This document shows, piece after piece, positions 2,052 to 46,000 of a stretch of DNA of 64,000 nucleotides. A program made the translations under genes and the position numbers. Position 1 is the first letter of the stretch; each line of letters begins with the position of its first letter. The DNA lies in the NCBI GenBank assembly GCA_037951105.1, contig JBAMJV010001312.1, positions 62,001 to 126,000 of the forward strand, written 5' to 3'. Source of the DNA: Echinarachnius parma (Eukaryota; Echinodermata; Echinoidea; Clypeasteroida; Echinarachniidae). The notes under the pieces were generated by a model. That model had not been told where the DNA came from. It made no database searches and saw only the letters and a program-made list of their open reading frames with translations.

Positions 2052-2271
2052 CCAAACAAACGGTGGCAATACACCAGAGAAGAAGCCTGCATCAACGGAG
2101 GAATCTAAGAAGGAGTCTAAGAAGGACTCATCGAAACAAGCAGCTGCTTCAGAGAATGGTCCCGACACAATTCCACCACCAATGCAGCTATCCAGCTCGT
2201 TAGCGTTGTACGTCGTAGAGGACATGACGAAGCACGTAACGGGGTGGATGTCAGACTTTGGCGAGAAGCAG
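2052..2271 (+). CDS. Unrecognised gene, exon A (5'-most visible)
   Basis: The acceptor follows CCCCAATGTAG. One base completes the previous codon, then the frame reads QTNGGNTPEKK and ends at GEKQ before GTTAGC. Two decayed copies of its acceptor and 5' end lie just upstream at about 1724-1805 and 1893-1985. Confidence 0.72.
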
Positions 2272-4444
2272 GTTAGCATACATCTGATCTCAATATGGTA
2301 TCGAAATATGATGTTAGGGTCATGGGTTGTGGTTCTAAACAATGTCAGGTTGCTAAGAAGGCAATCGTCCATTCCAACTCACTACCAAAAGACTGAATCA
2401 ATGGACAACTTGTTTTAATAGATCCATTACTATGTAATAACAAAAGAATATGACACCACTACTTTGATGCAATGGACCGCTGATAAGGTCCAGTAAAATT
2501 CTCCTTGGCCATCCATATTTTGGTGTCCCAGGTCAGGCAACTTAATTTGTAAAACTCAATGGCCCGAATTCTCATCAGTGGCTCAACTTGAGCTATGGTC
2601 CCCTGAGATATCTAATGGTTTCCTTTCATTATCCAGTCAATCCCTTGAAATACTTATAACCTGGACTTGTGACATTACCTCGCTATATCAGTTAAAAGAG
2701 CATTTGTTATAAAGAGATTCCACTGAATTGTCATACATATTGTTACATTAATTACAAGAAAGAATAATGTTCCACCCTTATCTTTTCTACCACAGGCATT
2801 GAAGGCTAGCGACGATGCTTATGTACTAGGGGCCGAGACCAGCTCGCAATTATCAGTAGATCTTAAATTTGCAAGGTCGTTAGTGAGGGTGTCGGAAATT
2901 CAAGCAAATGTTCAAGAAGAAAGGTGAGTAATGAATTTAATTAGGGAGCCTTTGTTTCAAAATGGTAGGAAACGCAGCAGAGTATTCACTCAACCGAGAC
3001 CATCCTTTCACTGTACTTTTTGCTGTACCAGGACAGGGTTGTATGTACGTGTACGTATTAAACACGGGTTTACGTGATTTTAGAAGTGACAACGATACAC
3101 AAACTAAGTATAAAGTTACACATTCTCCGCCCATTTTTAGGACCAGGTGCTATTTTGGCTGAGTACCGCTCTGAATATCTTTGCAACATATACACTGGGC
3201 CCAAAAAGAAACTTATAATTGTTCACATGGTCATATCTTGAAAATCTGTCCATCAAAATTAACCAAAATGACACACGGGATTAATTAAATACCCTACTCC
3301 AATGACATGTCAATATCCAAACGGTTACATTACTGACAGAACTGAAAAATGCACTGGCATGGAACCGTTTGCTGTATCACATGTCACAGCCTGGACATTT
3401 CGGCAACAGAGTTTAAGGCAGGTGAGGAAGTCAAAACAATTGGAATGAAGGTAATGTCAGTTACCCAAACACAGACATCAATAGTGGGTGTGTCCATCAT
3501 ATGCTTGGAAGAATTCAGTGCATCTGCTATGAATTCTGTCCACCAGGTTTCTGATACAGGCTTGGAGGAGATTGTTCCTCTCTTCCTGTAGAGCTGGTCT
3601 AAGTTTGCATTAACAGGCGGATTGTCCATATACTGTGACATGTGGTCCCGGAAGTTGTTCCATGTCAGTGCTTTTTGCTATTGTGTCAGTTGGTCAACTG
3701 CTTGGTTACTGACATGTGTTTAGAGTAGAGTATTTAAGTAATCCTGTGTGTCATTTTGATTAATTTTGATGGAGAAGATATGATCATGTGAAAAATTATA
3801 AGTTTCTTTTTGGGCCCAGTGTAGATGTTCTGGATTGCAAATGTGGATAGGAGCTGTGTTAAAGGATGGTCTCGGTTAATTGAACCCTCAGTCCTGTTTT
3901 AATACTGTCGTGGAATAAAAGCTTTCCATTTTGATTTTAAAAGGAAGCAACATCCTCATGTTAAATTTTAAAACATAAATTTTCATTGTTTGCTATTTGA
4001 ATCAAACAGCCTTCTAATTTAGCCCTTTTGATTACTTTCTAACATTAATATATGGGTGAATGATGATTATTTTTTAATAACTGATGAAAGATGTTACAAT
4101 TTTAATGTAATTAAAACATTTGATAAATTACACAAGTATGCAAGTTTAATTTATTTAAATTACATTAAATTAATTTTAGATAACTTTACTTTTCCTTTCT
4201 GAAAAAGTATGATTTGATTTATAATAATGTATCATATTTTCTCAATACATGTTTTTAAATAAACCTTGCTAGCATTCTATTTCAATCTTTCTTATTAGTG
4301 TAACAGAATTACCAAAGTTCTTATTCTTAATATTGCCTCTTTTTCCCACTTCTTTCCCCACCATTATCCTACAGGGTATTATTTCTGCGTAGACAAGTCA
4401 TTGAACTGGACAAGTTGAAGAATGAGAATGCCTTTATGACATAG
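2052..4444 (+). CDS. Unrecognised small helical/coiled-coil protein, 3' part of gene (3 exons)
   Basis: Three exons join in frame with GT..AG introns: 2052-2271, 2796-2923 and 4375-4444, ending in TAG. The 5' exons were not found and may lie left of the window. The visible 139 or so residues start with a Lys/Ser/Glu-rich segment (about 35 residues, PEKKPASTEESKKESKKDSS). A compact helical domain follows, including SLALYVVEDMTKHVTGWMSD, then SQLSVDLKFARSLVRV, and finally a charged C-terminus VLFLRRQVIELDKLKNENAF. No signal peptide or membrane segment is visible. I do not recognise the family; size and helical character resemble small subunits of coiled-coil complexes, but no assignment is made. 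The 2272-2795 intron holds nothing notable; the 2924-4374 intron carries a mariner-like element. Confidence 0.72.
2796..2923 (+). CDS. Unrecognised gene, exon B
   Basis: Acceptor TTTTCTACCACAG, phase 0, reading ALKASDDAYVLGAETSSQ and on to NVQEE plus two bases, donor GTGAGT. Both splice sites are strong and the frame is open throughout. Confidence 0.75.
3193..3821. mobile_element. mariner-like MITE with TA target site
   Basis: Terminal inverted repeats CACTGGGCCCAAAAAGAAAC and its complement extend for about 30 bp at both ends. Each end is flanked by TA (3191-3192 and 3822-3823), the Tc1/mariner target duplication. No transposase frame survives. It sits in the last intron of the unrecognised gene. 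Confidence 0.75.
4375..4444 (+). CDS. Unrecognised gene, terminal exon
   Basis: Acceptor after a pyrimidine-rich stretch (CACCATTATCCTACAG). One base completes an Arg codon, followed by VLFLRRQVIELDKLKNENAF-MT and TAG. No clear AATAAA was seen close downstream. Confidence 0.7.
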
Positions 4445-7957: not shown

Positions 7958-8649
7958 GGGCCGTATGCATAAAAACAAGCAATTGCTTGTGCTAGCCTTT
8001 TGCTTGAATCGGTATGCATAAAAACAAGCAATTGCTTGCAAGCAAAAGCATTTGCTTACAAGCACAAGCAATTGCTTACTGCTCGTAAGCAATTGCTTAC
8101 CAAACAAGCAATTGCTTAAAACCGTATGCATAAAACGAACCTTTTACTTGTCTTGATAAGCAATTGCTTGCGTTTTTTCAAGCACATCCAGACCAGCTTG
8201 AGCTCTTGCTTACTCAGGGCATTCGCGTTTAAGGATCAATTTTTCGTACCGTTTCAGGATGATTTTAAGCTCCATATTCCAGAGGTTATGTTGTGATCAA
8301 ATTCCTGTTATTTTAGACTTTTTACGGCAATTTTTGTCCATCGATCTGCACAGAAACCCCCCTGATGCTCCGCGCTGTTTCCCCCCTATTTGCGTAATAA
8401 AAAATACTGCTGCCAGGTCGGGCACGAAGCGTTGTTGCCCTGCAGTGCGATGTTCGCACAACCGTAACGATCCTTTGTCCAATACGTAAGCAATTGCTTG
8501 GCAGTGCAAGCAAAAGGTTTGAGCACAAGCAAAGGCTTGTGCATACGAATTTAAGCAATTGCTTGAACTTGATCTTTTGCTTGACAAGCTCTTGCTTGTG
8601 CTTAAAGCATTTGCTTATAAGCAATTGCTTGTTTTTATGCATACGGCCC
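7958..8649. mobile_element. Inverted-repeat element built from AAGCAATTGCTT palindromes
   Basis: The ends GGGCCGTATGCATAAAAAC and its exact complement at 8631-8649 bracket 692 bp. The 12-bp palindrome AAGCAATTGCTT occurs perfectly nine times: 7977, 8026, 8066, 8087, 8106, 8158, 8488, 8553 and 8619. Many one-base variants lie between. The GTATGCATAAAA word of the end recurs inside near 8010 and 8123. A GC-richer core (about 8220-8480) has no repeats. No target duplication was identified. Confidence 0.75.
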
Positions 8650-14044: not shown

Positions 14045-17000
14045 GTAAATTAAAGTAAAACCTTGTCCCACATATTCTAATTTGTGTGTTGTAATTAGCA
14101 ATCCTGTATGTATTATTGTCATGTGCACATGAATGGCTTCTTGATTTTGAAAATGAAGTTAAAAGTGTACTACTAGTGGCGACTGACTGGAATACTCCCT
14201 AGTCAGTGAAAAATGTGCACTTCATATGCTGAAATGATTGCAGTGTGTTTCCGTTGAATGGGGCACTACGAACTATTCCCCATTCACCCTGTACAACGGT
14301 TGGCTGCAGCTCAGCGCGCGATCTCATTGGCTGCCTTGCTCATGACGTAGCTCCTCGGTGCACGTGCCCGAAATCAGCTTTGCAGCTCTGTGTAGAATAT
14401 CGCATGGAGGTAGTATCGATAGCACGGCGCGGGCGCAATTGCGGGCGGCCACGATGCCCACCCCTTCTCAAAGTATCGTGAGCGATACTACACGCCAGCA
14501 TCTGAGACGGTACAATTCCATGCATATTACAGCGACTGCTCTCATACAACCACAACACAGGTATTATACATAGACATTATCAATCTAGAAACATCCACGA
14601 ACACGATGCGACACCGACGGAAATTCGTAAGAATATCATGAAAAGTATACTACTTACCGAAATCACAGTAAGACCAAGGTATCGTATGGGCTTTCCGCTC
14701 TTGAACAGCACTTTCAAAAAATCGTGAAAAATAGAAGAAAAGTGGAAACTAGGCCGAGTTTGGTACCAGATGAAGCACAGTTGCAAGCAGAATCTTGTAG
14801 CACACTGCACGCAGATGTAGGGGTAAGCTAGTGCGCATGCGCATCCATTTCATTCATAAAAATCGGCCCGATGCTGCCGTAGTAGTGACGTCACGTAATT
14901 AGATGAATACGTCGCTCGCTCGACGAAACCCGGAAGCAAACCCGGAAGCCATCCGTTCGTGCAATAGTTCGTAGTGTGGGGGTAATATGATAATTATAAA
15001 TTAACGCTAATAATAATTAATTGATACTCGACGAGTCAACCAGTCCATGAATGATTATTGATTGGCATGAACAGATGAATAGCGAGTACTATAAATTACT
15101 ATAATAATATGAATAAATAACCGTAATATAGGCGTTATTACTATTACTTGTAGAACATACACTTGTATAAAAGTTACTTGTAGAGAATATGAGAGCATTT
15201 TGATTTCATATGACATTGTTCATGTATGAATAATGTCAATGCAGGGCTCAACACTCGCATTGGCCCGCGGGCCCGGGGCCAGTGAAATTGCACTTCGGGC
15301 CAGCAAAAATGTACAAAAGTCATATTTTGGTGGCCCGATCGGGCAAGCAGATTTTCCACCCTGACATTGCATCGACAAAATTTGAAAAATCTGGTTTTCT
15401 TTGATGTTATGCTTCATCTATAATACAGGTTTGATAGGGAAAGAGTAATATTTGTAATAGTTTACTCATGATATAACATTTTTGGGTCAGTAAATTAATC
15501 TTTCGGGCCACCAGAAAAAGAAATTATTTCACTTGTCCGACCGGGCCACTGACAAAAAAGGTAAGTGTGGAGCCCTGGTCAATGACTTTACAAATTGGTT
15601 GTTAAATCATGTGGGCAATTCCAGCGTCACGGACATTACAAATATGAACAATTTCTTGACTTTCCAAAACCACAACATTAAGATGAAACTGTCCACTATA
15701 TAACTTTTACTTTGATTACAAAGCAATGGCCAAGTTGAATATACAATGTACACTACAAGTTGGAGAACATTTTCCTTATTTGTGGGTTGGTAGTCCTACA
15801 TTTCAGCGAGAAGATAAAAAGTTATATGATGTATACAAGGAGAAAGAGCATAAATTTCTCTATTTTTAGAGCCGTATTTTGTTAACTCTACCTCCTTTAG
15901 TTATTTTTTAATGATTTTTAATATTGCGTAGGGCGCTATAATTTAGGAAAATTCTTAAATTGGTAACACATTGTGATATTTTAAAAACAGATTTCGGCGT
16001 TCAAATTGGCAACTTTGCAGCAAAGTCACTTCGTATTTGTCTTAAATTGTAATTACTAAATATTTTCCACCTATTTTTATGTCATTAAAAGGTCCAAAAA
16101 TTTAGGAGTTGCCAATTTGTAGAGGAAAATCAATAATCAATTTTGCCTTAAAATAGCTCTCGCCCATGATGGGTACCAGAAAATATGTGCTGTCACGGAC
16201 ATGACATGTTTTGGCAAAATATGTCATTTCCGTGACGACACACATTTTGTGGAATAGTACAGTTAAAAAAAGTTAGTGTGGAGATGGGCAGGTCCAAGCT
16301 ATTTGACTTGTGACGTACGGGACATTCACAGCTTTCAATTGAATATTATTCAAAGGAAGGAGCTATGATCTGGAATCTTTTTGGTGCTTTGGAAAGCTAC
16401 TTGTAGTCCCTTCCTAAAATGCAAAAAAAAAATATTCAAAATGCTTGTTAAAATTTAATTATGCTAATAAATATGCAGCGTGACGTACGGGACCAGAGAA
16501 ATTATGACTTAAAAAAAAAAATGTGTATTGTGAAAACTCTCTGAATCTACATGGCAGATAACAACTTATTCCTGATATATGCATTTAGAAACCATTAATA
16601 TACGCACTGCAAAAAAAAAATTAAAAATTATGACCTTTTATCCCATGATAATTAATGAAAGAAAATAGGTATGCGCGTGACGTACGGGACATGTGACGTA
16701 CGGGACATTTTTCCCTCATGTTTTATTTGTCATTTTCCTGCTTTTATTTTTAAATCTTTGGGTTCATTTTGCAATATATTTGTTCTAATTGTATTTATTC
16801 AATATTGTGATGATTTAAAACTCAAAAACAGCTTCCGCAATACATTATAATAAGACTTTAACAAATTGAAGCTCTGAAACCCGATAATTTGCATTAATTA
16901 TGCTAATTACTAATTAAGAATTAATATTTTATTTGGCTTCAAAAGATGTGGGATACATCTATCTGATGTAAATTACTTTCAATATTGACAAAAAAGATTT

Positions 17001-20000
17001 GAATATGAGAAAATTAAACAGAATCATCATAAATTTGGCAACTTACATGAAATCCTACACATGGGACTATTTAGAAGAAAAACTAAAAATATTTTGTCCC
17101 TTTTTAGCACTTTCTTGCAGTTTTTTAACCTGTTTGGAAGGTCTCGGTGTACTGAACCAATGTAATACTATATTTCCTTCATTGACATGCAGTTTCCCTA
17201 CTCAAATTGACTGTCTAGTATTTTAGATAATTATTTAAAGGTAATTATGAGGTATTTCAAATTTCCCCCTCCAGACACATTTTCATCAGTATGTAGCTAT
17301 AACGCGAAGTATGATGTGGTAATTATGTAATTACTTTTAGAGGTAACTCCTAAAGGTAAGACCTATTTATTCTGAAATTGTTAAGAGTATCTAAGCAAGA
17401 ATTATTATGATAATCAGTGGTAAAACACAAAACAAATAATTTTCACCTGGCTTGCCATTGCTTTAACACTGAAAATGTCCCTTACGTCACACTTTTGTCC
17501 CGTACGTCACATGTCTTAATTAGCTAATAAAATCAAAACGAAAAATGCTGTTTTCATAAAACTTAGCTAGCCAGTCAAGAGTATGATAAATTAGAACTTC
17601 ACAAAATATGAAAGAAAAAAATTAGGTGTTTCATACTGAAATATAAAAAAAGGTGTTCATTTTTGTGACGTACGGGACATTGCAGTTTGGACACGCCCTT
17701 ATTAGCATAATTAATTAATTTTGACACTTAAAAATTTGGTCAACTATTGCTAGTGATTAGTTTTACTAGTCCCCATATATGAAATTAAAGCTTGATTGAT
17801 AAAATAAAAATTAAAAATAGAAATACAATGTCCCGTACGTCACGCTAATATTTGAAATATGCAAATTAGATGCTCACTACTCGTTAAATATGCATATTAT
17901 GCAAATTTCTGTACTAAAAATCTAAACTTCAGACTTTTAGCTTTGAAATGATACCAAATTTGTAAAGCTAAAATGAAGATGAATTTTCACCATCAAGGGG
18001 GACATTAGCTTGGACCTGCCCAGGTGTGGGTAACCCAAAGCCAAAGGCTGTGCCTGCCAATATTGTTTGTTCATATCAACAGAAACGAATCGCGATAGTG
18101 ACACAGTCCAAAATTTCAAACTAACATGACACGTTTTGTTGTTATATAGGATGCCTTTTATAAACAGGTCTACGTGATCCCTACACGGCTACATACTATG
18201 TGTCATGTTCATTCTATGAAAGTGAAGAAAAGGAGATTTTCCTACCTTTTTTGGTGATTCTTGTAGACAATTTTGGTCTTTCTTGCTCTCCTGCCTGCGA
18301 AATGCATATTTTGTTTGCGCGGCGCGGCCCACTGCATGCATGCAGTGTACATTAATTGCGCGAGGGGTGTTGGCGAATTCACTTCGACCCATGCAGTTGT
18401 TATGGCTACGACCTGACGCTATCGGTATTAAATAAAGTAATTATAGTACCACATACTTTGTCATGTGTAACATACAAAGTATTTTACATATGAAAGGACA
18501 TGTATGAGGTAACCTTAGCAAATTATCAAATATAACTATTTCATAGCGAGAATCAAGCAAAAAATACACGGGGGCGACGGGCGATTCGCCCCCGATACCT
18601 TTGGAATCGCCCCCGTGAGCCACGGCACGGGGGTGAACAAAAAAACAAAAAATTAAAATTTTGTTTTACATCTTTTTGCATGATCGGAAAGCGCCAGAAA
18701 CGTACCAATCATGGCATAATCGGATAGATCACATCATGATAACCATTTATTAGACCCTTGAGCAGTGAAAACGATGTAAAAAAAAAAGAGCCCCTGAATA
18801 GCCCCAGTGAATAATTTCACGAGGGCGTTTTTCTCCCTCAAAATTTTTTAAATCGCCCTCGTTTTTTGGTTGGCGAGAATGATGGGCTCTTATGTCTTAA
18901 CTCATTTATTTTATTTGCATTTCTGAGGCTTAATCATGACTCGACACTCGCTGACTCGCACTTGCCCGGGGCCAGTAGAATTGCGTTTCGGGCTAGCAAA
19001 AATTTATAACAGTCATATTTTGGTGGCCCGATCGGGCAAGCAGATTTTTTAACCCGACATTGACAAAATTAGAAAAATCTTGTTTTCTTACATGTCAAGC
19101 ACTTCATCTGTAATCACATGTTTGATCAGGAAAGAGTAATATTTTGAAAAATTAACAAGTTTCCTCATGAAATAACATTTACGAGCCAGAAAATTTTTCT
19201 TTCGGGCCACCAGAAAACGGGAAGAAATTATTATACTGACAACAATGTAAGAGTGGAACCCTGGCTTAATGTATAACAGTCATCTGTTTCAGCTTTACCA
19301 GAACTCCTACTTCCCACAAACTGTCACAGCATGGAATGCGCTCCCCAATAATGTCTTGGCTTCTACATCATTAGGAGCCTTTGCGGGAGCAGTTGCCTCA
19401 ATCGGCAATTAACGGGACACCTCACCGGTTCCCCTCGACTCTACGTCCTGACTGATGGACCCTGTCGAGTACCCAAGTAGAAGTAGAAGTAGAAGTAATC
19501 ATCCTAGCTACCAATAAAGACAATATACCCTGTGGCCTGTACGTCTCTGTTCGCTGGTTTTCTTTCCTGCACATGTTAACATGTAGCAGGGCTCTATTAA
19601 AGGACAATGAAACTATGGCTTTTGGTTATTATTATCGTTTAGAGGGTGAACAGACATTTGATTTGATACATAACTTGGCAATTTTTGCCTCCTTGATCCC
19701 ATGAAATCCTTACGTGAACATACTCACATTTTACTAATTCTTACGGCGGCAAAAGATGATAGGAGCGGCCATGTTCTTGTAAAATTCACCCGACATGCTT
19801 TGCAAACTCTGACGTATGTGCTACGGGCCGAACAAAAAGCTTTTCACTGATTTGAAAGCGTCTACAAGTATTCAGACAATGGTTTGAATTGGTGCTATTG
19901 AAATGCATTAGTGCATATCATTGACCAGAGTCCGCACAAACCTAATAATGGCGGCCTCCAGTGTTCGCGTGAATAGTGGTATACCCGAAAGAGTTTTCAC

Positions 20001-23000
20001 ATATTTCTTCCAAAGCAGAAATCTGAGTCGGAGTAATGTTACATATAATAAACAGGCATACCGTAGAACACCATCGTCAAGCACCCCCAAGCACCAATAT
20101 GCATCTCGCTTTTAAAGAGCGCCCGCTCTCTGTCCAAACGGGAAACTTTAATCAAGTATGCAAATAATGGTGAGGAATATTCATGAGGATAATAATGGAG
20201 GTGAATCTCATGGAAACGTCTTTAAAAGCAAGATGCTTATAGGTGCTTGGGGGGTGCTTGACGATGGTGTTCTACGGTATTACGATGTATAACTATAAAG
20301 TAAAATAAACTCTATTCTTGAGTTGCATTGCCCTTTAAGTTATGAACCTACTTGCATGTGGCAAGTGAAAATCAGTTTTGGGCAATTAATATTTTTTAGT
20401 TTAGTTGCCTGTCCAGGGCAAGTGATTTAGATCCAAATCGTTTCAAGAGCAACTTATTCATTACCTAGGTTTTCTAACATTAACCTGTGGCTTACAGGAA
20501 CCGGGTGGGCTATGTACAAAGTCTATGGGATTACATAATCTCAAAGGGAATGGGTTAATCACCCTTTTCTCTTGAATGTTCTTAATGGCAATCACAGTTC
20601 AAACATTCCTTTTCTAAGGTACCCTTAATTAGGGCAGTCAAAGTATTATTTTTGGGAAGCTATTTTCTTAGGAACTTGTGCTTGCCTGATACCATTGATA
20701 CATGACCGGGCATGCAAAAAATCCTTTTGTGTAGAGTACTGACTGCAAACAGGGCTTGCCCTCAGCAGTGGCCCAGGTGCCAATGGCTACCTGAAATGTA
20801 ATTTGGCCACAAACGAGTTAGGATGATCTACAACACACAGTCAAATGGGAGGCTAGATCTGTTGTGTCATTTTAGCAACCTGAAGGAAAAGCTTAAAAGC
20901 CGGAATGAGCCCTGCAGTGCAGTTTACCCCTTATCTCGCAGGGGTTGTTGTTGTTGTTGTTGTTATTATTTTATGGCAATCGGTCAAACTTGACTATTGT
21001 TGCCAATTTCAATTCTCTTTAATTTTCTTTCCTTTTTTTGGTCTATTCTTCTTTTCATTTCATTAATGTTCATGGATTTACACAATGTATGTTTGTTTTG
21101 ATTCTAGGTATGAGCACAAAGATTGTAAAGAGGTGGAGAGGAAGGAGAGAAAGAGCAAGAAGAGCAAGCAAAGGTGAGTGGTTTATAACACACATTACCA
21201 TACTGGTGTGTGTCATAGGCAATGCATGGACAATGCACAGTTAGCAAGTTAATTTTACATGCTTTAACACATGCATACATGCATTGTCTAGATCTGCATT
21301 ATGTACAACCAGGAAATTTATAACAGAATTTGTAATGTTTTCTGAGGCCCATTAAATTGGAAAAAATCTGGTGTTTACTTGCCCAACCGAGCAAAAAGAA
21401 AAAAGGCTAATTTCTAGCATTGGTGTAGGATTGCGCACAGTCACATTTATCTATACTAGCTGTACCCGCGGAAATCCGCGGGTTTTTGTAAGAGAAAGAC
21501 GATGATGACATACACCACTTTAAAACTTTACTAAATATCCCACAGTCATCATTTAAATAGTAAGACAAAGTAGACTCGGGCGACTCAATCCCGCCCGCCC
21601 GTCCAACGCTACATCCGGCCAATGTATAACAAATTCATGATGATTTAGTATCCACGCAAAGTTATTCAGTTATCCCCCATATTTCATATGATCCATAATT
21701 TGTTCCGCTTGTATTAAAATAGATACAATACACTATGTATGTGTTCTTGCTAATAAAGTAGCTTCGCCGCTCCCCCCTCCCCCCTCCCCCTCCCCCCCCC
21801 CCCCCCCCCGGCTCCAATTGCCTGTATGACAAATAACCCGTCGTGTCCCCTACACATTTCATATCATAAACTAAGTTCTCCCGCAGATACCTTTGTTCAT
21901 ATTTTTGTGAAACCCGATGATCATGATACATGTATTCCCTTGAAAGTAATATACATGTACATGTATTTGCATACTACATGAGCAGATACTTCCCCGATAC
22001 TTCCCCCATCCATTCTACCCCCACCCCCGATAATTTGTTCCGCTTGTATCAAATTAGATACAGTACACTATGTTCTTGTTCTTGCTAGCTTCGCCGCTGC
22101 CCCCCAACCCCCCCCCCCCCCTCGTGTCTTCAATTGCCTGCATGACACATTACCCGTCGTGTCCCCTACACAATTCATATCCAAACTAAGTTCTCCCGCG
22201 TATACATTTTGTTCATATTCTTGTGAAACTTGATGATAGCCGTTTATACATGCATTGCATAATAAATGAGCAGAGACCTCCCCGTCCATTTTACCCCCAC
22301 CCCCACCCCCCCCCCCCACCCCGTCGGCGTCTCTTCTGGTACTGCATGCTGGCTTCGTGGCTGACTTAATACATTTTACCACAAGCTGGCGCAATTATAG
22401 TATCGTGTACGGTAGGGCGAATAGAGACGATGGTCAGCAGGTCAGTGAGCTATGCAAATAAACTGCGGTTCGGTGGGGTGATTAGATGACTCCGGGACGT
22501 GTATACACGGCTGTACAGCCATTGCGCGTTGTATAACCGCAGCTAAATTGAAGTTGTCGCATTTTGTCGTCGATGCACTTACAAACACAATGCCAATCGG
22601 CAATAGCGATCATTACCATACCATCCGCGTAATATAAATATTTATATTTATCAAAACCTGGGTAGTTTCGCAACGTGTTATATCTAAAATGGTTTCTCAA
22701 TATATTATTTGTTTTATCTGCTCCAATTTATATTCTTACAAATAATTTATGGCGATAAATCGTTAGTCAATGCTCGGCACCTTAACTTTAGCAAACGGCA
22801 TTGCTGACTTTCCCTTTTCTTCGATCTGGACGATGACTACGGGGCGGGAGCGACTCGGGAATGCCTTATTGTCCTCCGCAAAACGTATATCCTTCGATCA
22901 CGACGGTCGGGGAGTCGCCGAATCCTCGGGGTGAGGATATCTCGAGTGGGACATGATTCGAGGGGTTGAAGCTTACCGTATTAATATAATAGATAAGCTG

Positions 23001-26000
23001 CAGGGCTTGAAATTGGCACTGGGGCCTAATTTTACTTGCATGTCTAGACAGCCTAGTGTAGGGCAAGTCCAAGATAACGCGCGTGTTACGTATGGGACAT
23101 TTCAGAGACTTTCACCCCCTAAAAAATAATGTAGAGTGACTTTGATTTTATTCTTTTACCATCTCCATTATTGGTATCTATGAGAAGAATAACCATGGTA
23201 AAGATGGTGACCTTTGACCTTTGCAATAATATTTTATAAGATAAAATGTATGGCGTTACGTATGGGACCAGAAGAAATGAGGTTTTTTAGAAATAATATT
23301 TAAGTTGAAAACTCTGTGAAAGTAATTTAGAAGACAAGTTGTAATTCAGTGTGGTAGAGGGTACATTGCTAAGGTTTATTAAGGCAAAGTTTCATTTCAT
23401 TACGAAAAACGCTTTTCTTGCAGGCTCAAACTAATTTTGGTAAAGACGTGTTACGTATGGGACAGTTACGTTTGGACATTTTGTCCCCATTCGTTTAATG
23501 TAGGGAAATCAATATTTAAGGCAAATTGAGGGTATTTAGTAAAAATAACGAGTTGCCATGGTGATTGGTGTAAATAAGTATCAGAAATGGTTTTGTCATC
23601 CCTTTAAACCCTATAAAAGAGGTATCACTCATTAATTTGGCATTCCTAGATCAGAATCTATACAGTTTTACAGGAATTTGGGGAATATGCAAATTAGGTA
23701 AATATCTAAATTATGCAAATCATATGCTTTGTATAATGTTTTTGGAGTCAAAGTAAGTTAACAAATTATACATACATACTAGGACATGATTAAATCAAAT
23801 TAATACATTGTGTGTGTTTGTAAGCTACTGTTTAACAGTATTTGTATGTATGTGATTGTCCCATACGTAACACATTGTCCCATACGTAACACTTTCTATA
23901 AATTCTAATTTTCTTATAAAACAAAGGTCTAATAAAAATTTCCCAGGTTATTATAGTATTTTACTTTTAAAATGCATAAATTAGAACTTCCCAAAGTTGC
24001 ACTAGAATAAGTATTACATTATTTGAAAAAAATGAAAAAAGGTTCCTCATTTTGTTACGTATGGGACATTTCATGCTAAGACATGACCTAATTTGCATAA
24101 TTAATTAGGTCATGACTTAATGTTTATGTAAAATTTATACGGATGATTGAGTGGTCATGTCTATATATGAATAAAATATCATATCCTTCCCTTTGATTTG
24201 TTATGAATTTTCATAATTGTCCCATACGTAACGCTCTATTTCACATTTATGCAAATGAGGCCCTTCAAATTTGCATAAATTTACATAAATTTATTTTTAT
24301 TTTTATGGAATTCAAAACTTCAACTCATGGGCTTCAATATGATGTGAAACATGTCATCAGTAAATCAAGATGAAATTTCAACAGCTAGGTTGACCTTATC
24401 TTGGACTTACAGACTTGCTATTGTTTTTCTGTGTTAATTTGGCCAACAAATTATGTTTTGGACTATTAAAACTTGGTAATTCTAGATCTTACTCAAGAAG
24501 CTTCAATATGAGAAAGGTTAGTCTATAGCCAAGCCGCTCCTTCATTCAGACTTATCTTGACACCTATTTGACTATACCCTCAGGCTTTTCTAATGCTACG
24601 TACAGTCTCAAATATGGTTTTGTTTTTTCTCCCCTTGTCTATTCTTCCAAGGTATGGCCCAGTTCAGCCAAAAGTGAGGATTCCAATCAGCATGACCAGT
24701 AGAGGGCGCCCCATATACAAACCCACCAACCTGCAGGTGAGCTCCTCGTCACATTTATTCAAACTTGTAGTTCGTCCTCAGACAATGTTACCGAGTACCT
24801 ATAGCTATGATGTACATGTCACAGTCCCACATGTCCGACACTCGCCCACCCAAGTAACCCGTAACAAAAAACACATCTGTCAACTAGGCTAATTTTACGT
24901 GCCAGGATTATTAACAATTTGAAATTTCAGCCCTGCTTCCCATCAGTGCCACGTACTGTCATGTACATGTACATTTAGATGCCTTAATTGTCACGAAATA
25001 TAGCCAAGGAATAGCCACGTTTCATCGCATTCACAAAAATGCCATTACATGTTTTTTTTTACGGGAAGATGTGACTGGGACATCATAACTGTTCTAAAGA
25101 TATTTGTTCATGTTCTCAAGTTTACATGAATAGCAGTGTAGCTCAATCCTCCAATCATCCTCTATGAATAGAATAAAGTTAAGCTTGGTATCTGAATGTC
25201 TAGATATAATTCATTCCATGATTTTATTGTCTGCAAATCACCAGACCTGATTCTATATTCTAGCAGAAATTTACTTCAAGTCCTCAAATTTTTTTTGATT
25301 AACCAACAAATTATGCAGGTGAAGCTTACGAGTGACTACAAGAAGAAGCGATCCCATCTGCAGAAGAAACAGGAAGCCCTCAAGAAGGCTCTCAAGCAGG
25401 AGAAAGCACGCAAGAAGGCCAGGCGACGTGGACAGGCCAAGACCAAGCGCAAAGTACCAAAAGTACCCAAGACCAAGCCAAAGGTAATAGCGCCAAAGAT
25501 GATATGTTTTAGGGTTGTCCATCTGTTGCCTCCTCATTTCCAGTTGGAAGATTTGTTAAGAACTATCTGTAAATAGGAACAGAAAATATACAAGTGAGAT
25601 CATATACAAGAATGTCAGATGATGCAGACAGTCTGAGAACTGAAAGAACTGAAAAGAACAGAAGGTAAAGCTAAAGGATGTATTGCCAAAGATACAGCAC
25701 AGATGATTTCAGTTGTACCAAACACCAAGCCAAAATAGTCTAACTGCAAAGGTACAACAAATATAATATCAATTGCAGTGATGAGTTGTAATTACTTAAA
25801 TTGTAGTAAGGTAGTATTAAAATTAGAATGACAACTATGAACACGAGGTATAATGCAAGAATGCCAGTTGTTGCAGACAGGGCAACACCAAGCCCGAGGT
25901 TCCAAGGCCATTATTAAGACCAAAGGTGTTGTATTTTTTACCAATATCAATATTTTAGAAAGTGTGAATGGATAAATTAACTTTTTTGTTGACTGTGTTT

Positions 26001-29000
26001 TTGCACAGAAAGTTCAAGGAGCATTATGGTTTTGTATTTTGTTGTTTCAGAGAAAAACTGTGTACAGATCGGAGGAGGGGGAGGAGGAGGAGGAGGATTG
26101 GAGAGTGGATGAAGAAGGGCTGTCGGAGGATGATGATGACGATTACCAACCGGTGAAAGGAAAGGCCAGGGTAAATTTTGCATGCAATTTTAATATTGAA
26201 GTGATCCATTCATTTCATAAAATTTGTCCAAAAGGGATATTTGAGACTTCAATCATGAACCAATATGATTGTGTGTAACTGTGAATCTTATGGATGTTTA
26301 CCTCATAGTGAAAGTTGGTGTCAGATTTGTATCTCCTATTGCCCATTGATTTTGACTGCAATTGAACCCTTTTCATTCAATCATAAACATCTCCATAATT
26401 AGGGAGACATTTGAAAAATAAAAATCCCATTTCATTCTTCTGTTACCATTAGCCAAGCAACAAGGTACAAGAGAAATGTGAAAGCTCCAAGTGATTTTGG
26501 TTGAATTTCATAAAGTTAATGGATCACTTTACTTTTACCTTTCAAAAATTAATTTCAAATAAATGAAAACAATTTGAAATGTATATTAGATAATCAGATT
26601 TGTATTTGTCTGAAATCTAGAGCTTGTAAATAGTGACCCATTTTGATACACAATAGATATATACATTTACAATGAAAGATTTATAAAGTATAGTAAAGTA
26701 ACTATTTGAGTAACTTTTTTCATATTAGTGATTGATTGTGATTTAAAGATATTGTGAAAATTTGTTTCATAGGGCCTGGCCAAACTAGCTGCAGATATGG
26801 AAGAGAATGAGGGTGCATCAATTCGCCCTGCGAAACGGGGTCGAAAGCGTGGTGCTACACCAGGCAAGAGCAGAGCAAAGCGCGGCGAGAAACTGCCACC
26901 CAAGAAACGGAAGTACCTGGACAGGACCAGATTAAAGTAAGTCAAGAATTAAGTGCAAGGCTGTTCCTTAACCCTATAGCTTTGGCGTTGTATTCCTTCC
27001 TTTTTCAACCTAGCATTTTTAAGATTGCTTTGTCAAGTATTATGCACAACTGAGGTGTTGAATTTGTTCAGCATGAAAGTCTTCTCTGTTGGATAAATAT
27101 TGTGTATAATTCGTGTACAAATTGTATGCAAAATTATCAAGGAACTCGACTAACATTGCTGCACTAAAATTTGTATAAAATGTAAAGTGTGCACTTTGGG
27201 GGGTCAAACAAAGATAAAAGGCGATCAGAGTCTATTTCTTTGATCTAAGTCATTATTTTTGTAGTGAAATAAGCAGAACACATTTTTTTAAAGCAAATGA
27301 AATGGCCTTAGCCCGGGGCCTGAGAAAACTGGTTCCATCTATGAACAGGTGATGTAATTTTATTACAATTTAGCATCATTTCACCCCACTTACCTTGAGA
27401 AACTAATATTGAGAAATTATTGCAATATCCTTGCTTTCTTCTGCTTTATATGAGTGACATTATATCATGGCATCTTTAAGGATTTATAGTATATCCTTAA
27501 CTTTTATCTAACAAAACTTGCTCCTATTGATTTTCTTTCTTTATTTGTGTTGCTGTAGGGGAGAAACCTGGTACCGATGCCGCATCAAGAAGATGATGAA
27601 ATACCCGATGCGCTACCAGTGCAAGATCTGCCTGAACGAGGTGGGAGAAATCACTGAAGTCATCGACCACATCCAGAACGAACACCCGGACCAGATCACC
27701 GGCTTCCGCTCAATGCTGGGACCTCATCTGGAGCGATGCGGCCTCATCGTGGTCTGGAGGCTTCCGGAGGGAGAGCCATCATCCCTGAATGACTTCCCGG
27801 ACAGACCTCAAGGCGAAGGTAGTACAGTCCAGAGGGAAAATGATCCAGAGGGGGGTGCAGGGGAGAGGGCAGGTGGGGATGGGGGTATTCCGATGGGAGG
27901 AGGTATCCTGAAAGGGGGTTACATGTCTCTTTTGGTTGACGGGGAAGGTGGGTCACGACGAGCGGTCGAGGAGGACCTTGGTGACCAGGGGAGGAAGGTT
28001 GGGGATGGAGTGGAGGATAGAGAGGATGAGGATTGCAGAGCTGTGACCATCAACGAAGACGGCCAAACCAGCTCCCTCTTCAGAGAAGGTGATCCAGAGC
28101 CTAAACGACCAGAGGATGACATCGATGTGCTATACGAATTGCAAGGCTGGGTGGTGATCATGATAGAATGCCCAGAGTGTAAAAAGTACATCAGTATATA
28201 CAGTTTACCACGGCACCAGTTCGACCACAGCAAACCAAAGAAAGAGCACCCCTGTGACAAGTGCAGCAAGGTCTTCAGTCGGCTCAACCTGCTGCGTAAC
28301 CACGAGAGGAAGCACATGGAGAAGCCACCAAAACCCAAAGAGGAAGAGAAGACATTCATGTGCGAACTCTGCGGGGACGTGTTCAGAAAGGCCAAGTACC
28401 TGAAGAACCACCAGATGCGCCACGAGGGGAACCTTCCTTTCGTCTGCAAGATCTGCGGCCGTCGTTTCCTTTTCCAGCGACAGCTGAAGCGCCACGATGT
28501 CATCCACCGCGATGTCAAGCCCATCCTCTGCCAGGAGTGTGGGAGAGGCTTTGTCCAACGCTCGCAGCTCAACGCCCACATGCGTCAGCACACTGGAGAG
28601 AAACCCTACAAGTGTGACCTGTGCGAGAGGGCCTTCACCCACAATGTGAGTCTCAAGACGCACAAGAAGCGGGACCATGGCGTCACTGTGGACAAGTGCT
28701 CCAACCCGCATGTTGGCCGACCCAAGCGGGAAGGTGAGGGTGGCACTCCCAAGAGATCCAGATCTTCTGGACCTCGGAAGTCGAGCCAGTCTCGAAGCCA
28801 GTCGGTGATAAACACACCTTCCGCTGCGGCGCAGTACCAGGACTGCAGGATGATTCCGTCAACGCTCAACCACATGCCCCTCGGTCTTGTCATCAACCCA
28901 GACCGCCAGCCACAGGGTTTGGACCTCAGTATGGACTCGCCAGACAGTCCAACATCGCTGGACGCCAACCAGGGTATGCCAAGTAGACCTGGTGAGCGCG

Positions 29001-29512
29001 GGCAGCGGGAGAGACAGATGTCTAGTGGTTCGAACATCCACAACATGGACGCACACTCCCACTCAAGATCGAGCCATGGTGAGGTGTCCCATGCAGGAGG
29101 TCTGGAGCCAATGGGGAACCCACACATGGAGAGGTCTGTCCTCAACATGGATCGACACGGAGGAGGAAGCGGACATGGTGGCGGAAGCGCATCGGCCCAC
29201 GCACACTACGAGCGCGCGATGGGCATGCCCCTCCACCTCATGGATCGTCAGGCCCTCTCCCCGCCCCTGGCTGAAGCCAGAGGAGGGGGTGTAGCCCATT
29301 CCCACCACATGGAACACCCCCACCACCAGGGGGGTATACCCCTCATCGCACGCCCTGATCTCAACCAGCATCTGATGCGGCCCAACAAGAAGGGGAAAGA
29401 GATGGAAGCGCAAGCTCACCAGAATAACCCCGCTCATCCTCCGTACCCTTGGGGTGCATGGGGAAATGTAGGAGATGGAATGGGCATGAGGTTCCCTGTT
29501 TTTCCACAGTAG
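13809..29512 (+). CDS. C2H2 zinc-finger protein, 929 residues, 7 exons
   Basis: Exons 13809-14044, 21108-21173, 24652-24736, 25319-25483, 26051-26170, 26773-26936 and 27559-29512 join in frame with GT..AG introns (2790 bases with stop). Residues 1-70 are acidic, then FEKWANLKSFLGIAG-IKSDARLAGFLINFW. A very basic stretch, an AT-hook-like SRGRPI and a Lys/Arg segment follow, then an acidic EEEEED/DDDDD patch. An isolated C2H2-like finger has C300, C303, H316 and H321. Six more fingers occupy about 483-652, only the last pair joined by HTGEKPY. The tail (653-929) is Pro/His/Met/Gly-rich and looks disordered. Role inferred: nuclear DNA-binding transcription regulator. No named orthologue recognised. 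The 4-7 kb early introns hold transposons. Confidence 0.85.
15242..15577. mobile_element. MITE with CAGGGCTC ends and 7-bp target duplication
   Basis: It starts CAGGGCTCAACACTCGC and ends GTGTGGAGCCCTG, flanked by GTCAATG on both sides (15235-15241 and 15578-15584). The core carries the palindrome GGCCCGATCGGGC. The superfamily is hAT- or P-like; the 7-bp rather than 8-bp duplication leaves it open. Confidence 0.75.
15612..16250. mobile_element. Probable partial relative of the repeated-motif elements
   Basis: It opens TGGGCAATTCCAGCGTCACG, parallel to the TGGGCAGGTCCAAG end of the neighbouring element, then GTCACGGACAT at 15626. The same word recurs at 16192, with an inverted variant near 16225. 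A right terminus was not found. Family membership is inference from the end and motif pattern. Confidence 0.4.
16285..18022. mobile_element. DNA element with eight GTGACGTACGGGAC motifs (element A)
   Basis: Terminal inverted repeats TGGGCAGGTCCAAGCT (16285-16300) and its exact complement (18007-18022) enclose 1738 bp. GTGACGTACGGGAC occurs on + at 16310, 16480, 16677, 16693 and 17665. It occurs on - at 17475 (one mismatch), 17497 and 17828. No transposase-like frame was found, so it looks non-autonomous. It matches element B (23061-24412) in layout. No target duplication was identified. Confidence 0.75.
18560..18890. repeat. Inverted GC-rich repeat, probable MITE remnant
   Basis: CGGGGGCGA / TCGCCCCCG words at 18568-18620 are answered by GAGGGCG / CGCCCTCG words at 18820-18865. 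The ends were not resolved. A similar GGGCGATTTAGCCCCC fragment lies near 44430. Confidence 0.4.
18935..19263. mobile_element. Second MITE of the CAGGGCTC family, 7-bp target duplication
   Basis: Homologous to 15242-15577 (TCATATTTTGGTGGCCCGAT shared). The left end has decayed to CATGACTCGACACTCG; the right end is GAGTGGAACCCTG. GCTTAAT flanks both ends (18928-18934 and 19264-19270). Fragments with similar ends occur near 20755, 22995, 30790, 35218 and 63650. Confidence 0.72.
19290..19500 (+). mobile_element. LINE 3' end (C-terminal tail of reverse transcriptase ORF)
   Basis: 19290-19412 reads QLYQNSYFPQTVTAWNALPN, then VLASTSLGAF and a stop. This is the characteristic N-S-Y/F-F-P-x-T-x-x-x-W-N-x-L-P tail of many non-LTR retrotransposon polyproteins. 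About 65 bp later comes the simple 3' tail GTAGAAGTAGAAGTAGAAGT. Only this end is present, as expected for a 5'-truncated insertion. The clade was not determined. Confidence 0.75.
19601..20334. mobile_element. Kolobok-like MITE with TTAA target and nested palindrome
   Basis: TTAA|AGGACAATG on the left and CATTGCCCT|TTAA on the right. Inside, 20059-20281 is an inverted repeat: TACCGTAGAACACCATCGTC and its complement, continuing through AAGCACCCCCAAGCACC. This is probably a second element nested in the first. Confidence 0.65.
20941..20964 (+). repeat. TTG microsatellite
   Basis: Short run of GTTGTTGTTGTTGTT in intron 1. Confidence 0.8.
21108..21173 (+). CDS. Zinc-finger gene, exon 2 (basic)
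   Basis: Acceptor GATTCTAG, then YEHKDCKEVERKERKSKKSK-Q plus two bases, donor GTGAGT. The phases match both neighbours. It is short and highly basic, which makes it less certain than the later exons. Confidence 0.7.
21465..21482. repeat. GC hairpin CCCGCGG-AAAT-CCGCGGG
   Basis: A perfect 7-bp stem preceded by TATACTAGCTGTA, standing at the start of the repeated block of 21695-22300. It may mark the end of a dispersed element, but no partner end was found. Confidence 0.4.
21695..22300. repeat. Tandem duplication, period about 335 bp, with poly-C cores
   Basis: Two diverged copies start at ATAATTTGTTCCGCTTGTAT (21695 and 22030). Both continue through GCTTCGCCGCT, a long C-rich run, CAATTGCCTG, CCCGTCGTGTCCCCTACACA and AAGTTCTCCCGC. 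It lies in intron 2 of the zinc-finger gene. Confidence 0.7.
23061..24412. mobile_element. DNA element with eight GTTACGTATGGGAC motifs (element B)
   Basis: Ends GGGCAAGTCCAAGATA (23061-23076) and TATCTTGGACTTAC (from 24397). The motif GTTACGTATGGGAC lies on + at 23085, 23255, 23450, 23465 (degenerate) and 24054. It lies on - at 23858, 23877 and 24219. Order, orientation and spacing match element A copy for copy. Flanking sequence is only patchily similar (ATAAATTAGAACTTC, GCATAATTAATTA). It fills most of intron 2 of the zinc-finger gene. Confidence 0.75.
24652..24736 (+). CDS. Zinc-finger gene, exon 3 (AT-hook-like)
   Basis: Acceptor ATTCTTCCAAG, then YGPVQPKVRIPISMTSRGRP and YKPTNLQ, donor GTGAGC. 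The RGRP core resembles an AT-hook. Confidence 0.78.
25319..25483 (+). CDS. Zinc-finger gene, exon 4 (Lys/Arg-rich helix)
   Basis: Acceptor AATTATGCAG, 55 codons from VKLTSDYKKKRSHLQKKQEA through KARKKARRRGQ to KTKPK, donor GTAATA. Likely a nuclear-localisation or nucleic-acid-contacting segment. Confidence 0.82.
25600..25935 (+). repeat. Degenerate tandem repeat after zinc-finger exon 4, with exon-like echoes
   Basis: GATGCAGACAG and TTGCAGACAG blocks about 245 bp apart, each preceded by TACAAGAATG or TGCAAGAATG. Between and after them, ACCAAGCCAAAATAG and CAACACCAAGCCCGAGGTTCC echo the end of exon 4 (GACCAAGCCAAAG). They may be decayed copies of the donor side of the exon. Confidence 0.4.
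26051..26170 (+). CDS. Zinc-finger gene, exon 5 (acidic)
   Basis: Acceptor TTGTTTCAG, 40 codons RKTVYRSEEGEEEEEDWRVD to YQPVKGKAR, donor GTAAAT. Confidence 0.82.
26773..26936 (+). CDS. Zinc-finger gene, exon 6
   Basis: Acceptor TTTGTTTCATAG, reading GLAKLAADMEENEGASIRPA, then a basic GRKRG/KSRAKRG segment to YLDRTRL plus two bases, donor GTAAGT. Phase matches exon 7. Confidence 0.83.
27559..29512 (+). CDS. Zinc-finger gene, exon 7 (all C2H2 fingers, tail and stop)
   Basis: Acceptor TTGTGTTGCTGTAG. It reads GETWYRCRIKKMMKYPMRYQ onward and encodes all fingers and the disordered tail in one 1954-base exon, ending FPVFPQ-TAG. The open frame running upstream to 27518 is intron. Codon choice is markedly GC-rich compared with the flanking introns, which also creates long empty antisense frames. 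Confidence 0.92.
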
Positions 29513-43032: not shown

Positions 43033-46000
43033 CTAAGGAGAGCATGAAAAAAAGAAAATCATATATCAATTTCAATACTTTTATGGCAGTCCTTAATCTG
43101 GTGTACAGCTTTATAATCTGGTTTGAATTATAATTTAACTACATGTATAAAGTAGGGCTGAGTCCAAACGGATATTCGTCCGATATCCGACCGTGAAGGT
43201 CGGATACCGGATTCAAATTCTCGGATACGGGTATACGAGAAAAAAAAAACAAAGAAAAGAAAGAAAAAAAAAGATTTTAAAAATTTATTTTTATTATTTG
43301 TTTAATCCCCATTCTATAGATTCGGTCAGAAAATGGCATGTTGAACCCTGCTAATCTATTGCTAAAGTTAAGGTATTTTACATATATCACAAATAAACAA
43401 ATGGTAAGAGGATTAATGAATAGATTAGTGGTATAGTGAGAGCCAAATTTAGAAGTATCAATGATGAGATATCCGAAGGCTTTCATCTTGACAGCGGTTT
43501 GTAGACTAACATCGTACTGTCCTGCCGATTCAAATTTAAAAAACGGACGGGTATCGGATATATCCAAAATGTAAACAAATTAAAAAAATTAATATAAAAA
43601 TAATTGATTTATTTATTTTTATTTTTATTTTTTTTTACATTTCGGATATATCCGATATCCGTCCGTTTTTACTCAGCTCATATCCGGATATCAAAATATC
43701 CGGTTTGACTCAGCCCTAGTATAAAGTTACAAAATCCTGCTGGTTGTTTAAAAAATCTATGATTCAGAGCTTCTTAGAGAAGGGTATTTAACTGCAAAAA
43801 ACAAACACGCACTAAAGAAATACAGTTTTGACTAATATGTGAAGATGTGAAGATACAACTTCAGTTCATTCATTATCATGGATAGGATAACCAAGATTAG
43901 CATGCTGCAGTATTTTTAATTTTAAATTTTATTTTCCTTTGCATATATGTCCTATAAAACATATTCAAAAGCAAAATGGCAAATAACTGTGACTTTACAA
44001 ACAAATTACATTAAGAACTTGTCAATGAAGTCTTCTTGAATATAGAAAATTTTAAAAACGGTTTCAGCAGTTTTCCACAGCAACTAATAGCTTTCCATAA
44101 TTTTGAGTCCAGTTTAAGTTCAACGAACTCCGAAGAAGACTTGATAATACACCCTGAATACCAACCTGTTGAGGCTCTCTGGGCTGAAAGAAATCCTTCT
44201 CGTACACTCCCCTGTTACTGTACAACGATGGATTGCAAAGGCCGTATGCGTCCGATTCGTCGCCGTAGTTTTTTGTGTCGCTGATGCGCTTCGTCCTAGG
44301 GGCTGCGATGTCACTGCGTATCGTTGGAACACCGTACGTTCTGTAACCTGAAATTTGGGTGAAGGAAAATGTGAAAAAAGTATAATAAGCAATTGGTATA
44401 CCGTACAGTGAAAACAATACACGGGTGCTCAGGGCGATTTAGCCCCCAAAAATCATGCAGGAGCCCTGGAAAATGTGCATACTATTGCTGCTCTCTACCC
44501 AGGTGTATACATGGGGACCTGGTAGGAGCCTGGTGAAAGCCTTTATGTGAATGATCTTCTCAATGCCCATGAGCTACTTATTGGAATGCTATGAAGGTAA
44601 TCACCCTCTATTAAAAGCCCTATTCAAAAGCCAACTAGTTAGAATCATTACCGCATGTATGTTTTAAAAAATTTTTTTTAATAAAATAATATTTCATTCA
44701 TTTCATTTCATTTTATTAGTCCAATTGTAAAATGACAAAGGAAGTTTGTTTTGTACACATAATGGGAAAAACAACGAAAAGATGATACGCGATAAACATG
44801 TCAACAATAATTATTCATGCAAGACTATGTAACGCTGATTATTTAACAATAACATTTTAACTTTCTTTCAGCAATAAATTAGAACTCATAAAGTTATTAG
44901 TTATTATATGACAGATAGACAAACAAATCATTTTAACATGATCGAGCCACGGTTGGTATACTAAAAACAATTCATCAAAGAAATAAACAAAATTAACAAC
45001 TCACCTTTTGTGGAAACTCCGCCAACGACCGAGTTGATCATCTGGGCCGATGTGCGATGCCCACCAATGGCCATGTCAATCTGCTTCTTGAGTCTCTCTG
45101 GCGTCCCCTCCTTGTCCTTCCCCCCGGCTTCAGCCGCGACCGCGGCGGACATCGCCGGGTCGGTCAGACGCACACCCTCGTTCATCTTGTCCTGCCAGTT
45201 GAGGAAGTTTGCGAATTCCTCGTAGTCGATGGAACCGTTGCTGTTGGCATCACAGTATAGGATGAGCTGCTCAAGTAACTCTGGGTCTATGGGCAGACTG
45301 AACTGGTCGCAGCACTGCCGCAATTCCATGATGTCAATCTTGCCGTCTCCATTCTGTTGGAAATTGTAAAGTGTGAAAAATGATTTCAATGGAAATAAAG
45401 CAATGGGAAATTCACACATGCCTGATTTGGGCTTACATGGAATTAGGGTAAAGGGTGAGCTGCTTGAGTAGCTCTTGGTTTATGGGCAAGCTAAACTAAT
45501 GTAACTCCATGATGTCAATCCTGCTGTCTCCATTCTGTTGAGAGGGATGAAAAAGAAAACATTGAAATGTGATGAATAACGGATGCTTGAATTCCAAAAG
45601 GAAATAAAAGGGTGAGTGGTTCAAGTTACTCTGGGTTTATCAGCAAGGCTGAATTGGTCATAGCACTGCATGATGTCAATACTGCCGTCTCCATTCTGCT
45701 AAAAATGTTAAAATGGGATGCATGATAGATGGGTTTACATAAGATTAGAGGTAAGCTGAAATGAGCGCAACACTGCCAATCATGCCATCTCCATTCTGTT
45801 AAGAGTGTAAAAGAAAACGGTAAAATGGGATAAACGATGAAGGCTTGATTTTCAAAAGGGGATAAGGCAATGGGAAATTGGTAGAATAGTCCCTATCTAG
45901 TAATCTCACAAGTCAACTTATCACCTCACCTTGTCATAGTGGTTGAAAGCGGCTTGCAAGTTGTTGAAGTTGTGGTAATTTGCCTTTTTAAGCTGCTGCC

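Follow-up and report, generated by a model that had tools for sequence, protein, structure and literature searches.

Two transposon families of Echinarachnius parma carry one eight-site layout under different words

Two related transposons in the window

Two DNA transposons, here called A and B, lie in a 64,000-nucleotide stretch of the Echinarachnius parma genome (contig JBAMJV010001312.1, positions 62,001 to 126,000, forward strand), referred to below as the window. Element A occupies 16286..18021 (+) and belongs to a young, high-copy family with a 1734-bp consensus. Element B, at 23061..24408 (+), is an internally deleted copy of a second family with a 1728-bp consensus, and its right end is damaged. 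Each family carries eight copies of a 14-bp word in the same layout, and this array and the way its word changes between families are the subject of this report. An initial annotation, made from the letters of the window, had described both elements, with borders that required correction to the coordinates given here.

The ends of A are perfect 17-bp terminal inverted repeats at 16286..16302 (+, beginning GGGCAGGTCCAAGCTA) and 18005..18021 (−), bounded by target-site duplications that are imperfect in this copy, AGAT at 16282..16285 and AGGT at 18022..18025. The left terminal inverted repeat of B, GGGCAAGTCCAAGATAA, lies at 23061..23077 (+) and follows a presumed left duplication, TGTA at 23057..23060, which has no right match, the last bases of the damaged right terminus being gone. 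About 380 bp are also missing from this copy immediately ahead of its pair of reverse-strand sites. The deletion junction lies at 23840..23841, and many relatives, in which the query splits at 781/782, keep the missing sequence.

Copies were collected from 1.2 Gb of genome in 14,790 contigs. A first look gave 611 candidates for A and 1266 for B; the best 40 of each were scored, and 28 and 30 copies, respectively, were read from the top of the score lists. Both ends, of the GGGCA...TGCCC type, are recognised in 49 of these 58 copies. The target duplication is 4 bp long and AT-rich, and it is perfect in 40 of the 43 scorable copies, 15 of the 58 having been excluded for an end that was missing or mis-called or, for L005, as a duplicate. 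The longest stop-to-stop frame of the consensus is 63 amino acids in A and 66 in B. With inverted repeats, a duplication of fixed length, many copies and no transposase frame, A and B are non-autonomous DNA transposons; comparison with a phage collection gave no match. Divergence from the family consensus is 0.4–1.2% for A and 1.9–4.2% for B, so A is a young family and B an older one.

The eight sites run in the order forward, forward, close forward pair, close reverse pair, forward, reverse in both elements, with leading spacings of 170/197/16 bp in A and 170/195/15 bp in B, exactly as the initial annotation had described. In A they lie at 16310..16323 (site 1, GTGACGTACGGGAC, +), 16480..16493 (site 2, +, with private flanks C...C common to B and a third family, C), 16677..16690 and 16693..16706 (sites 3 and 4, the close forward pair), 17477..17490 and 17497..17510 (sites 5 and 6, the close reverse pair), 17665..17678 (site 7, +) and 17830..17843 (site 8, −). 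Seven of the eight read GTGACGTACGGGAC; site 5 reads GTGACGTAAGGGAC in this copy, differing by C9A, and has the consensus word in the family. The B sites lie at 23085..23098 (site 1, GTTACGTATGGGAC, +), 23255..23268 (site 2, +), 23450..23463 and 23465..23477 (sites 3 and 4, the close forward pair), 23858..23871 and 23877..23890 (sites 5 and 6, the close reverse pair), 24054..24067 (site 7, +) and 24219..24232 (site 8, −). Seven are exact copies of GTTACGTATGGGAC. Site 4 has lost one base and changed another, and the consensus of 30 copies has eight intact sites. The shared eight-site layout is confirmed. Matches to the pattern GTNACGTANGGGAC number 15 in the window, all within A and B, whereas 100 dinucleotide shuffles give 0.01 on average, which rules out a chance origin of the arrays. 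Octamers of the form ATGCAAAT also occur in the elements, at 16887-17906 and 23687-24276; eight of the window's 24 fall inside A and B.

Constancy of the word within families

Within each family the word is nearly constant. The 28 A copies match the family word exactly at 216 of 224 sites, and the match is complete at all eight sites in 20 of them. Of the 240 sites in the 30 B copies, 224 survive and 204 of these 224 match exactly; a full exact set of eight is present in 10 copies. The words of A and B differ at column 3 (G in A, T in B) and column 9 (C in A, T in B). None of the 20 changed B sites is altered at these two columns, and three of the eight changed A sites are, all at column 9. 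The CpG change C9T affects one site in each of two A copies and site 1 of six A-type left ends genome-wide.

The initial annotation had proposed that these two substitutions changed in concert and had pointed to mixed versions within single elements, or to sites varying independently across the family, as what would tell against this. Among the fetched loci, 72 have one or more GTNACGTANGGGAC sites; of the 524 sites that they hold, 299 are G3/C9, 217 T3/T9, 5 G3/T9, 2 T3/C9 and 1 G3/A9. More than one version occurs at 8 of the 72 loci, each time through a single odd site, and none of the 72 carries G3/C9 and T3/T9 words together. Neighbouring pairs of any version at the distance between sites 1 and 2 number 319 genome-wide (6 with a reversed-pattern control), with no A-then-B and no B-then-A pair. 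Concerted change is therefore upheld. Third-type pairs are likewise absent genome-wide in the one class that the search covered, defined by a base other than T in column 9 at both sites and other than G in column 3 at the second site; pairs of the class with column 3 not T and column 9 not C were not searched.

Constraint on the word and its change as a block

An alignment of the eight sites, made separately for the consensus of A, the consensus of B and one C copy (L072), shows agreement of 8 of 8 in each of the 14 columns; outside the motif edge, the resemblance drops to background over about 1–4 bp on either side. Family C, together with A2 and A3, was retrieved with a search pattern built on sites 1 and 2, which leaves only their sites 3–8 unbiased. 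Between the A and C arms 112 of 112 motif positions are identical, against 500 of 874 other positions (43% changed), with identity outside the words of 52% in the left arm and 61% in the right. Of six C loci examined, four (L059, L060, L070 and L072) carry the A-type word at all eight sites. L071 carries it at seven, with C9T at the other, and six such sites are present in the fetched part of L061. Between A and B 16 of 112 word positions differ, that is, two columns at each site. Identity outside the motifs is 44% in the left arm and 57% in the right, and the middles give only short BLAST matches. The earlier statement that sequence between the motifs is mostly diverged is thus right as to the divergence, with the qualification that the arms are still homologous. 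Stasis from A to C and movement as a block between A/C and B show that the word is no clock.

The immediate flanks behave differently from the core. In A, B and C site 2 keeps its private flanks CGT...ACC and site 8, which has one private C, keeps CGT...ACA, despite the different core in B. Flank identity between A and B is 0.388 for orthologous sites versus 0.295 and 0.301 within the elements; between A and C it is 0.729 versus 0.295 and 0.286.

Variants shared between copies separate the words from their surroundings. P values are given as guides, positions and copies not being independent, and the near-duplicates L005, L048 and L031 were removed before shared and singleton variants were counted, having been kept in the exact-site tallies, in the A total of 2156 below and in the counts that include CpG positions. 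Non-CpG singletons in B occur at 13 of 2586 cells in words and 280 of 43,764 elsewhere (P 0.52). Non-CpG variants shared by at least two B copies number 0 in 94 word positions versus 194 types in 1592 others (Fisher 7e-6); with CpG included the shared counts are 2/112 and 202/1616 (P 7e-5). In A, non-CpG variants occur at 0/2156 in words versus 322/44,702 elsewhere, and the singletons among them at 0/2002 versus 170/41,509. Since B words show a normal singleton rate and no shared non-CpG variants, their changes arise after insertion and are not propagated. Selection thus seems, from this distribution of variants, to act at mobilisation.

Other families on the same frame

Two further elements bear other words at nearly the same offsets. 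Element D, 3.9 kb long, is nested in the C copy L070 (L070:1907-5787), has the ends GGGCAATTCCG...CGGAATTGCCC with the duplication ATCT on both sides, and carries eight GTAATTCCGTTACC words and one copy with a single change. Element E, 1935 bp long, lies beside a D-type copy on contig C965 (L077, reverse-strand start, and the end of L078). It has GGGCA ends with ATAA/ATAG at its borders and eleven copies of GTAACTGACGTTAC. BLAST at an E-value of 0.01 finds nothing between D or E and A or C, nor between D and B; it returns one 15-bp match of E with B, at the limit, and one 28-bp match of D with E.

The layout is similar under these different words. Sites start (1-based 16-mer start) at 24/193/389/405 from the left end in A, 24/194/389/404 in B, 24/193/389/405 in C, 13/191/391/411 in D and 13/190/385/399 in E. 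From the right end the distances are 177/342/510/530 in A, 179/344/521/540 in B, 178/341/511/531 in C, 358/513/529/546 in D and 367/534/551 in E. These values outline a general frame: measured from the left end, sites stand at about 13–25, 190, 390 and 405 bp, and measured from the right end at about 178 (A, B and C only), 340–370, 510–535 and 530–550 bp. Of 200,000 random placements in the outer 600 bp, none for D and 19 for E come as close to A. This null was devised after the data had been seen, uses only sites at most 600 bp from each end and mixes two start conventions one base apart; D was oriented to suit A, either orientation being open to choice.

The words themselves, TGTGACGTACGGGACA in A, TGTTACGTATGGGACA in B, TGTAACGTCAGTTACC in E (reverse strand) and TGTAATTCCGTTACC in D, look related when set side by side, and they have partial two-fold symmetry at 8/15 to 12/16 positions. 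A left-end survey pattern, combining GGGCANNTCC with the half-sites GTAAC...TTAC, gives 440 matches genome-wide and none with a reversed-pattern control. Among the matches listed (about 100 of the 440, with at least one place twice) are further words, including F (TCGC core), F2 (TCAC) and others. One F2 copy has three left sites at 14, 191 and 378, all GTAACTCACGTTAC. One left frame is thus shared by no fewer than six words (A/C, B, D, E, F and F2). The F2 copy L081 has a 163-bp array outside its left arm.

A proposed family-specific reader of a near-fixed array

These observations are probably best explained by a near-fixed array that is read by a family-specific trans-acting protein, with which the word has co-evolved. 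Both ends would bear recognition sites at near-fixed places, each site about 16 bp long and imperfectly two-fold. In each family an unseen autonomous partner would supply the protein, most likely as its transposase or as an accessory factor, and joint binding of the sites by this protein would pair the ends. Copies whose array fits the protein would be mobilised, which would keep the word constant within a family. A shift in the specificity of the partner would let lineages with a wholly matching array take over, and the word would then appear to change as a block. Such a shift would leave the position-specific flanks unchanged, and likewise the spacing, which would be set by the form of the complex. 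The initial annotation had offered selection by a DNA-binding factor, a transposase or host protein of shifted specificity, as one of two explanations; this one is supported, and more strongly than could then be known, because D and E carry other words at near-same offsets. Its interpretation as a whole is partly supported.

Several points weigh against this explanation. A full-length relative encoding a transposase was sought, and neither a transposase nor a binding protein was identified in the frames of the long C and D copies searched against Pfam. Two loci, L066 and L067, hold an older B-like left arm with GTTACGTACGGGAC (T3/C9) at site 1 and GTTACGTATGGGAC (T3/T9) at site 2, a mixed pair, with a B element directly after it; as the left flank is identical in both, they are probably one duplicated locus. 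B words do contain two shared CpG variants, one present in 2 copies and the other in 3 (2 in 18 word positions versus 8 in 24 others, P 0.09). In A, shared variants taken alone are not significant (0/77 versus 33/1597, P 0.21), and the depletion rests on singletons, which make up most A variants because the family is young. Sites 1 and 2 of C, A2 and A3 carry the bias of their search pattern. For D and E the full reading comes from one copy apiece, and neither has a right site near 178. They also contain extra inner sites (D at 754; E at 611, 626, 820 and 1175), and their words are oriented differently from those of A, all eleven in E pointing the same way. Finally, in the F copy L080 only two sites are clean and a third is divergent.

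The arm in L066 and L067 is at the same time the sole hint of an intermediate. As a single case, its sequence would be compatible with a route in which G3T came first and C9T followed. Nucleosome spacing is close to about 170 and 195 bp, and one may speculate that the site spacing of about 170/195 bp is linked to nucleosomes.

A broader claim is evenly balanced: that these families belong to an animal transposon group in which an end geometry of about eight sites is near-invariant, the 14–16-bp word is exchangeable at all sites together, and several mutually isolated families share one genome. The superfamily may be undescribed. How a DNA-binding protein changes specificity when its sites are many and dispersed is an old problem for transposons, replication origins and regulons. 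Here several words, some with dozens to hundreds of copies, stand on one near-fixed frame in one genome, and because of this both the size of the switch (two bases at eight sites) and the missing mixed arrays can be counted. The frame and its half-sites also provide a search handle for autonomous partners, and the families offer a natural set of end sequences that are possibly orthogonal.

Alternative explanations

The main rival, which is unlikely although it deserves the most weight, is that a host DNA-binding protein (an activator, a repressor or an architectural protein) reads the words, and that the sites are kept for expression, for mobilisation or as a mark for silencing. The A and E words contain TGACGT, presumably the core of CREB/ATF sites, and the B consensus is rich in ATGCAAAT octamers, which are taken here to be POU-type: 8 are found versus 0.34 expected, the largest count in 300 shuffles being 4, so host factors may act on B. 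The B and D words nevertheless lack TGACGT. Nor is the octamer enrichment general, with 3 in A versus 0.31 expected (a count reached by at least one of 300 shuffles), 1 in C and none in D or E. A host factor of single specificity is insufficient because several words coexist in one genome on a similar frame, and it gives no reason for spacing kept to a few bp at both ends.

Far less probable is common descent with CpG decay, in which B would be an old A-like lineage with decayed words. C9T is indeed the expected CpG transition and is seen at site 1 of the six A left ends mentioned above. As a sole cause, decay is contradicted by G3T, which is a transversion, by the other CpG of the word (ACGT), which is intact at all eight B consensus sites, and by the lack of third-type pairs of the searched class. 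It would not strike eight sites alike and would leave intermediates, and the 204 exact sites among 224 survivors also speak against it.

Least probable of all is the other explanation in the initial annotation, that a gene-conversion-like process homogenises the eight sites within one element: it would account for sites that are identical within an element and change together, but it is rejected because identity ends about 1–4 bp from the motif edge and the flanks stay site-specific (those of sites 2 and 8 are kept in A, B and C while the B core differs, and a flank resembles its orthologue in another family more than it resembles the other flanks of its own element), so that tracts would need to cover the motif alone at every site, in both orientations and up to 1.5 kb apart, and it gives no reason for C to keep the A word at all eight sites.

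Search for an autonomous partner

The arms of family C yielded 29 high-identity copies among the best 40 scored of 323 and of 330 candidates. The three longest hold a nested D (L070), a repeat expansion (L071) and unassigned sequence (L072); nine frames of these three and one of L061 match no Pfam family above the cut-off. In L071 a tandem array of units of about 156 bp occupies positions 2130-3800 (reverse strand) inside the C copy. A gene remnant in D, ending ...KWVVVQHCKENNAKKLIGQVIEAVDSNITVKLLKQTVPEKYGWPHSR, has 151 matches, the best 150 of 325 candidates having been scored, and its conserved piece matches no Pfam family above the cut-off. The D copies or parts of copies L074, L075, L076, L077 and L079 contain no intact gene; L079 has a frame that is reverse-transcriptase-like by eye.

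Another candidate came from L082 (C987:135800-137620), where a minus-strand frame of the element, on the plus strand of the contig, contains a cysteine cluster that resembles by eye the CxC domain of KDZ (Kyakuja-Dileera-Zisupton) transposons. Against Pfam the cluster gives only a weak RING match below the cut-off. KDZ exons lie nearby at C987:141236 and 146263, and the KDZ family PF18758 has 32 matches in the genome. A KDZ exon is found 3,625 bp from two of the three F3-type left ends among the matches listed (C987 and C1292). In both cases the exons lie outside the arm as oriented; the F3 arm may sit inside an intron of KDZ. KDZ is not shown to be the partner of the GGGCA elements, whose duplication is 4 bp as against 7–8 bp.

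Comparison with known systems

Parts of this picture have precedents in the literature. CACTA (En/Spm-type) plant transposons have 10–20-bp subterminal words in both orientations that differ between families, even inside a single species (PMC2613891, PMC8978399): those of soybean Tgm1 and the Tgmt family differ at 6 positions (PMC2613891), and Chenopodium Jozin has 12-bp words (PMC8978399). Co-evolution with a TNPA-like binding protein has been raised for these elements (PMC2613891, PMC8978399). A and B likewise repeat subterminal words of this length in both orientations, but CACTA elements have CACTA ends and 3-bp duplications, in contrast to the GGGCA ends and 4-bp duplications here. A and B also differ in having eight well-separated sites, with a left-arm layout kept within a few bp across dissimilar families. 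Hermes (hAT) has multiple subterminal sites bound by BED domains of a multimeric transposase and placed rigidly relative to the end (PMC10368747). A and B resemble it in their rigidly placed multiple sites, which a putative reader protein would bind, yet Hermes has AAGT sites near its tips and an 8-bp target (PMC10368747), as against 14–16-bp words reaching more than 500 bp inward and a 4-bp duplication. The 8-bp duplication of hAT elements in general differs in the same way.

Other superfamilies can be compared by the duplication. Kolobok and piggyBac use TTAA, which is found in 1 of the 40 A and B duplications. Sola elements, compared by duplication alone, are alike in having 4-bp AT-rich duplications. 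Termini of Sola are G-rich. Sola2 shows duplications of this kind, with AWWT in Dictyostelium families (PMC3627910), and only 8 of the 40 A and B duplications fit AWWT. The fungal KDZ cases described have duplications of 7 or 8 bp (PMC12730594), unlike the 4 bp here. Galileo, of the P superfamily, spreads several THAP-type binding sites over more than 500 bp of its ends (PMC3688188), as A and B do with their own sites; it differs in its long inverted repeats, P-type transposase and secondary sites in tandem repeats, and no fixed layout across families was seen in that account.

No description of a fixed eight-site layout was found in the titles and abstract openings of the literature searched, a search in which the words themselves were not included. 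As far as these sources extend, family-specific words with the idea of co-evolution (CACTA) and rigidly placed sites (Hermes) are already published; the GGGCA ends, the 4-bp duplication and the sparse, near-fixed layout across families are what is different here.

Other features of the window

Two frames elsewhere in the window are likely host genes: one with C2H2 zinc fingers at 27512-29509 (+) and one with an EF-hand pair at 44964-45479 (−). At 7976-8632 the palindromic 12-mer AAGCAATTGCTT occurs about 10 times in 650 bp, partly in tandem.

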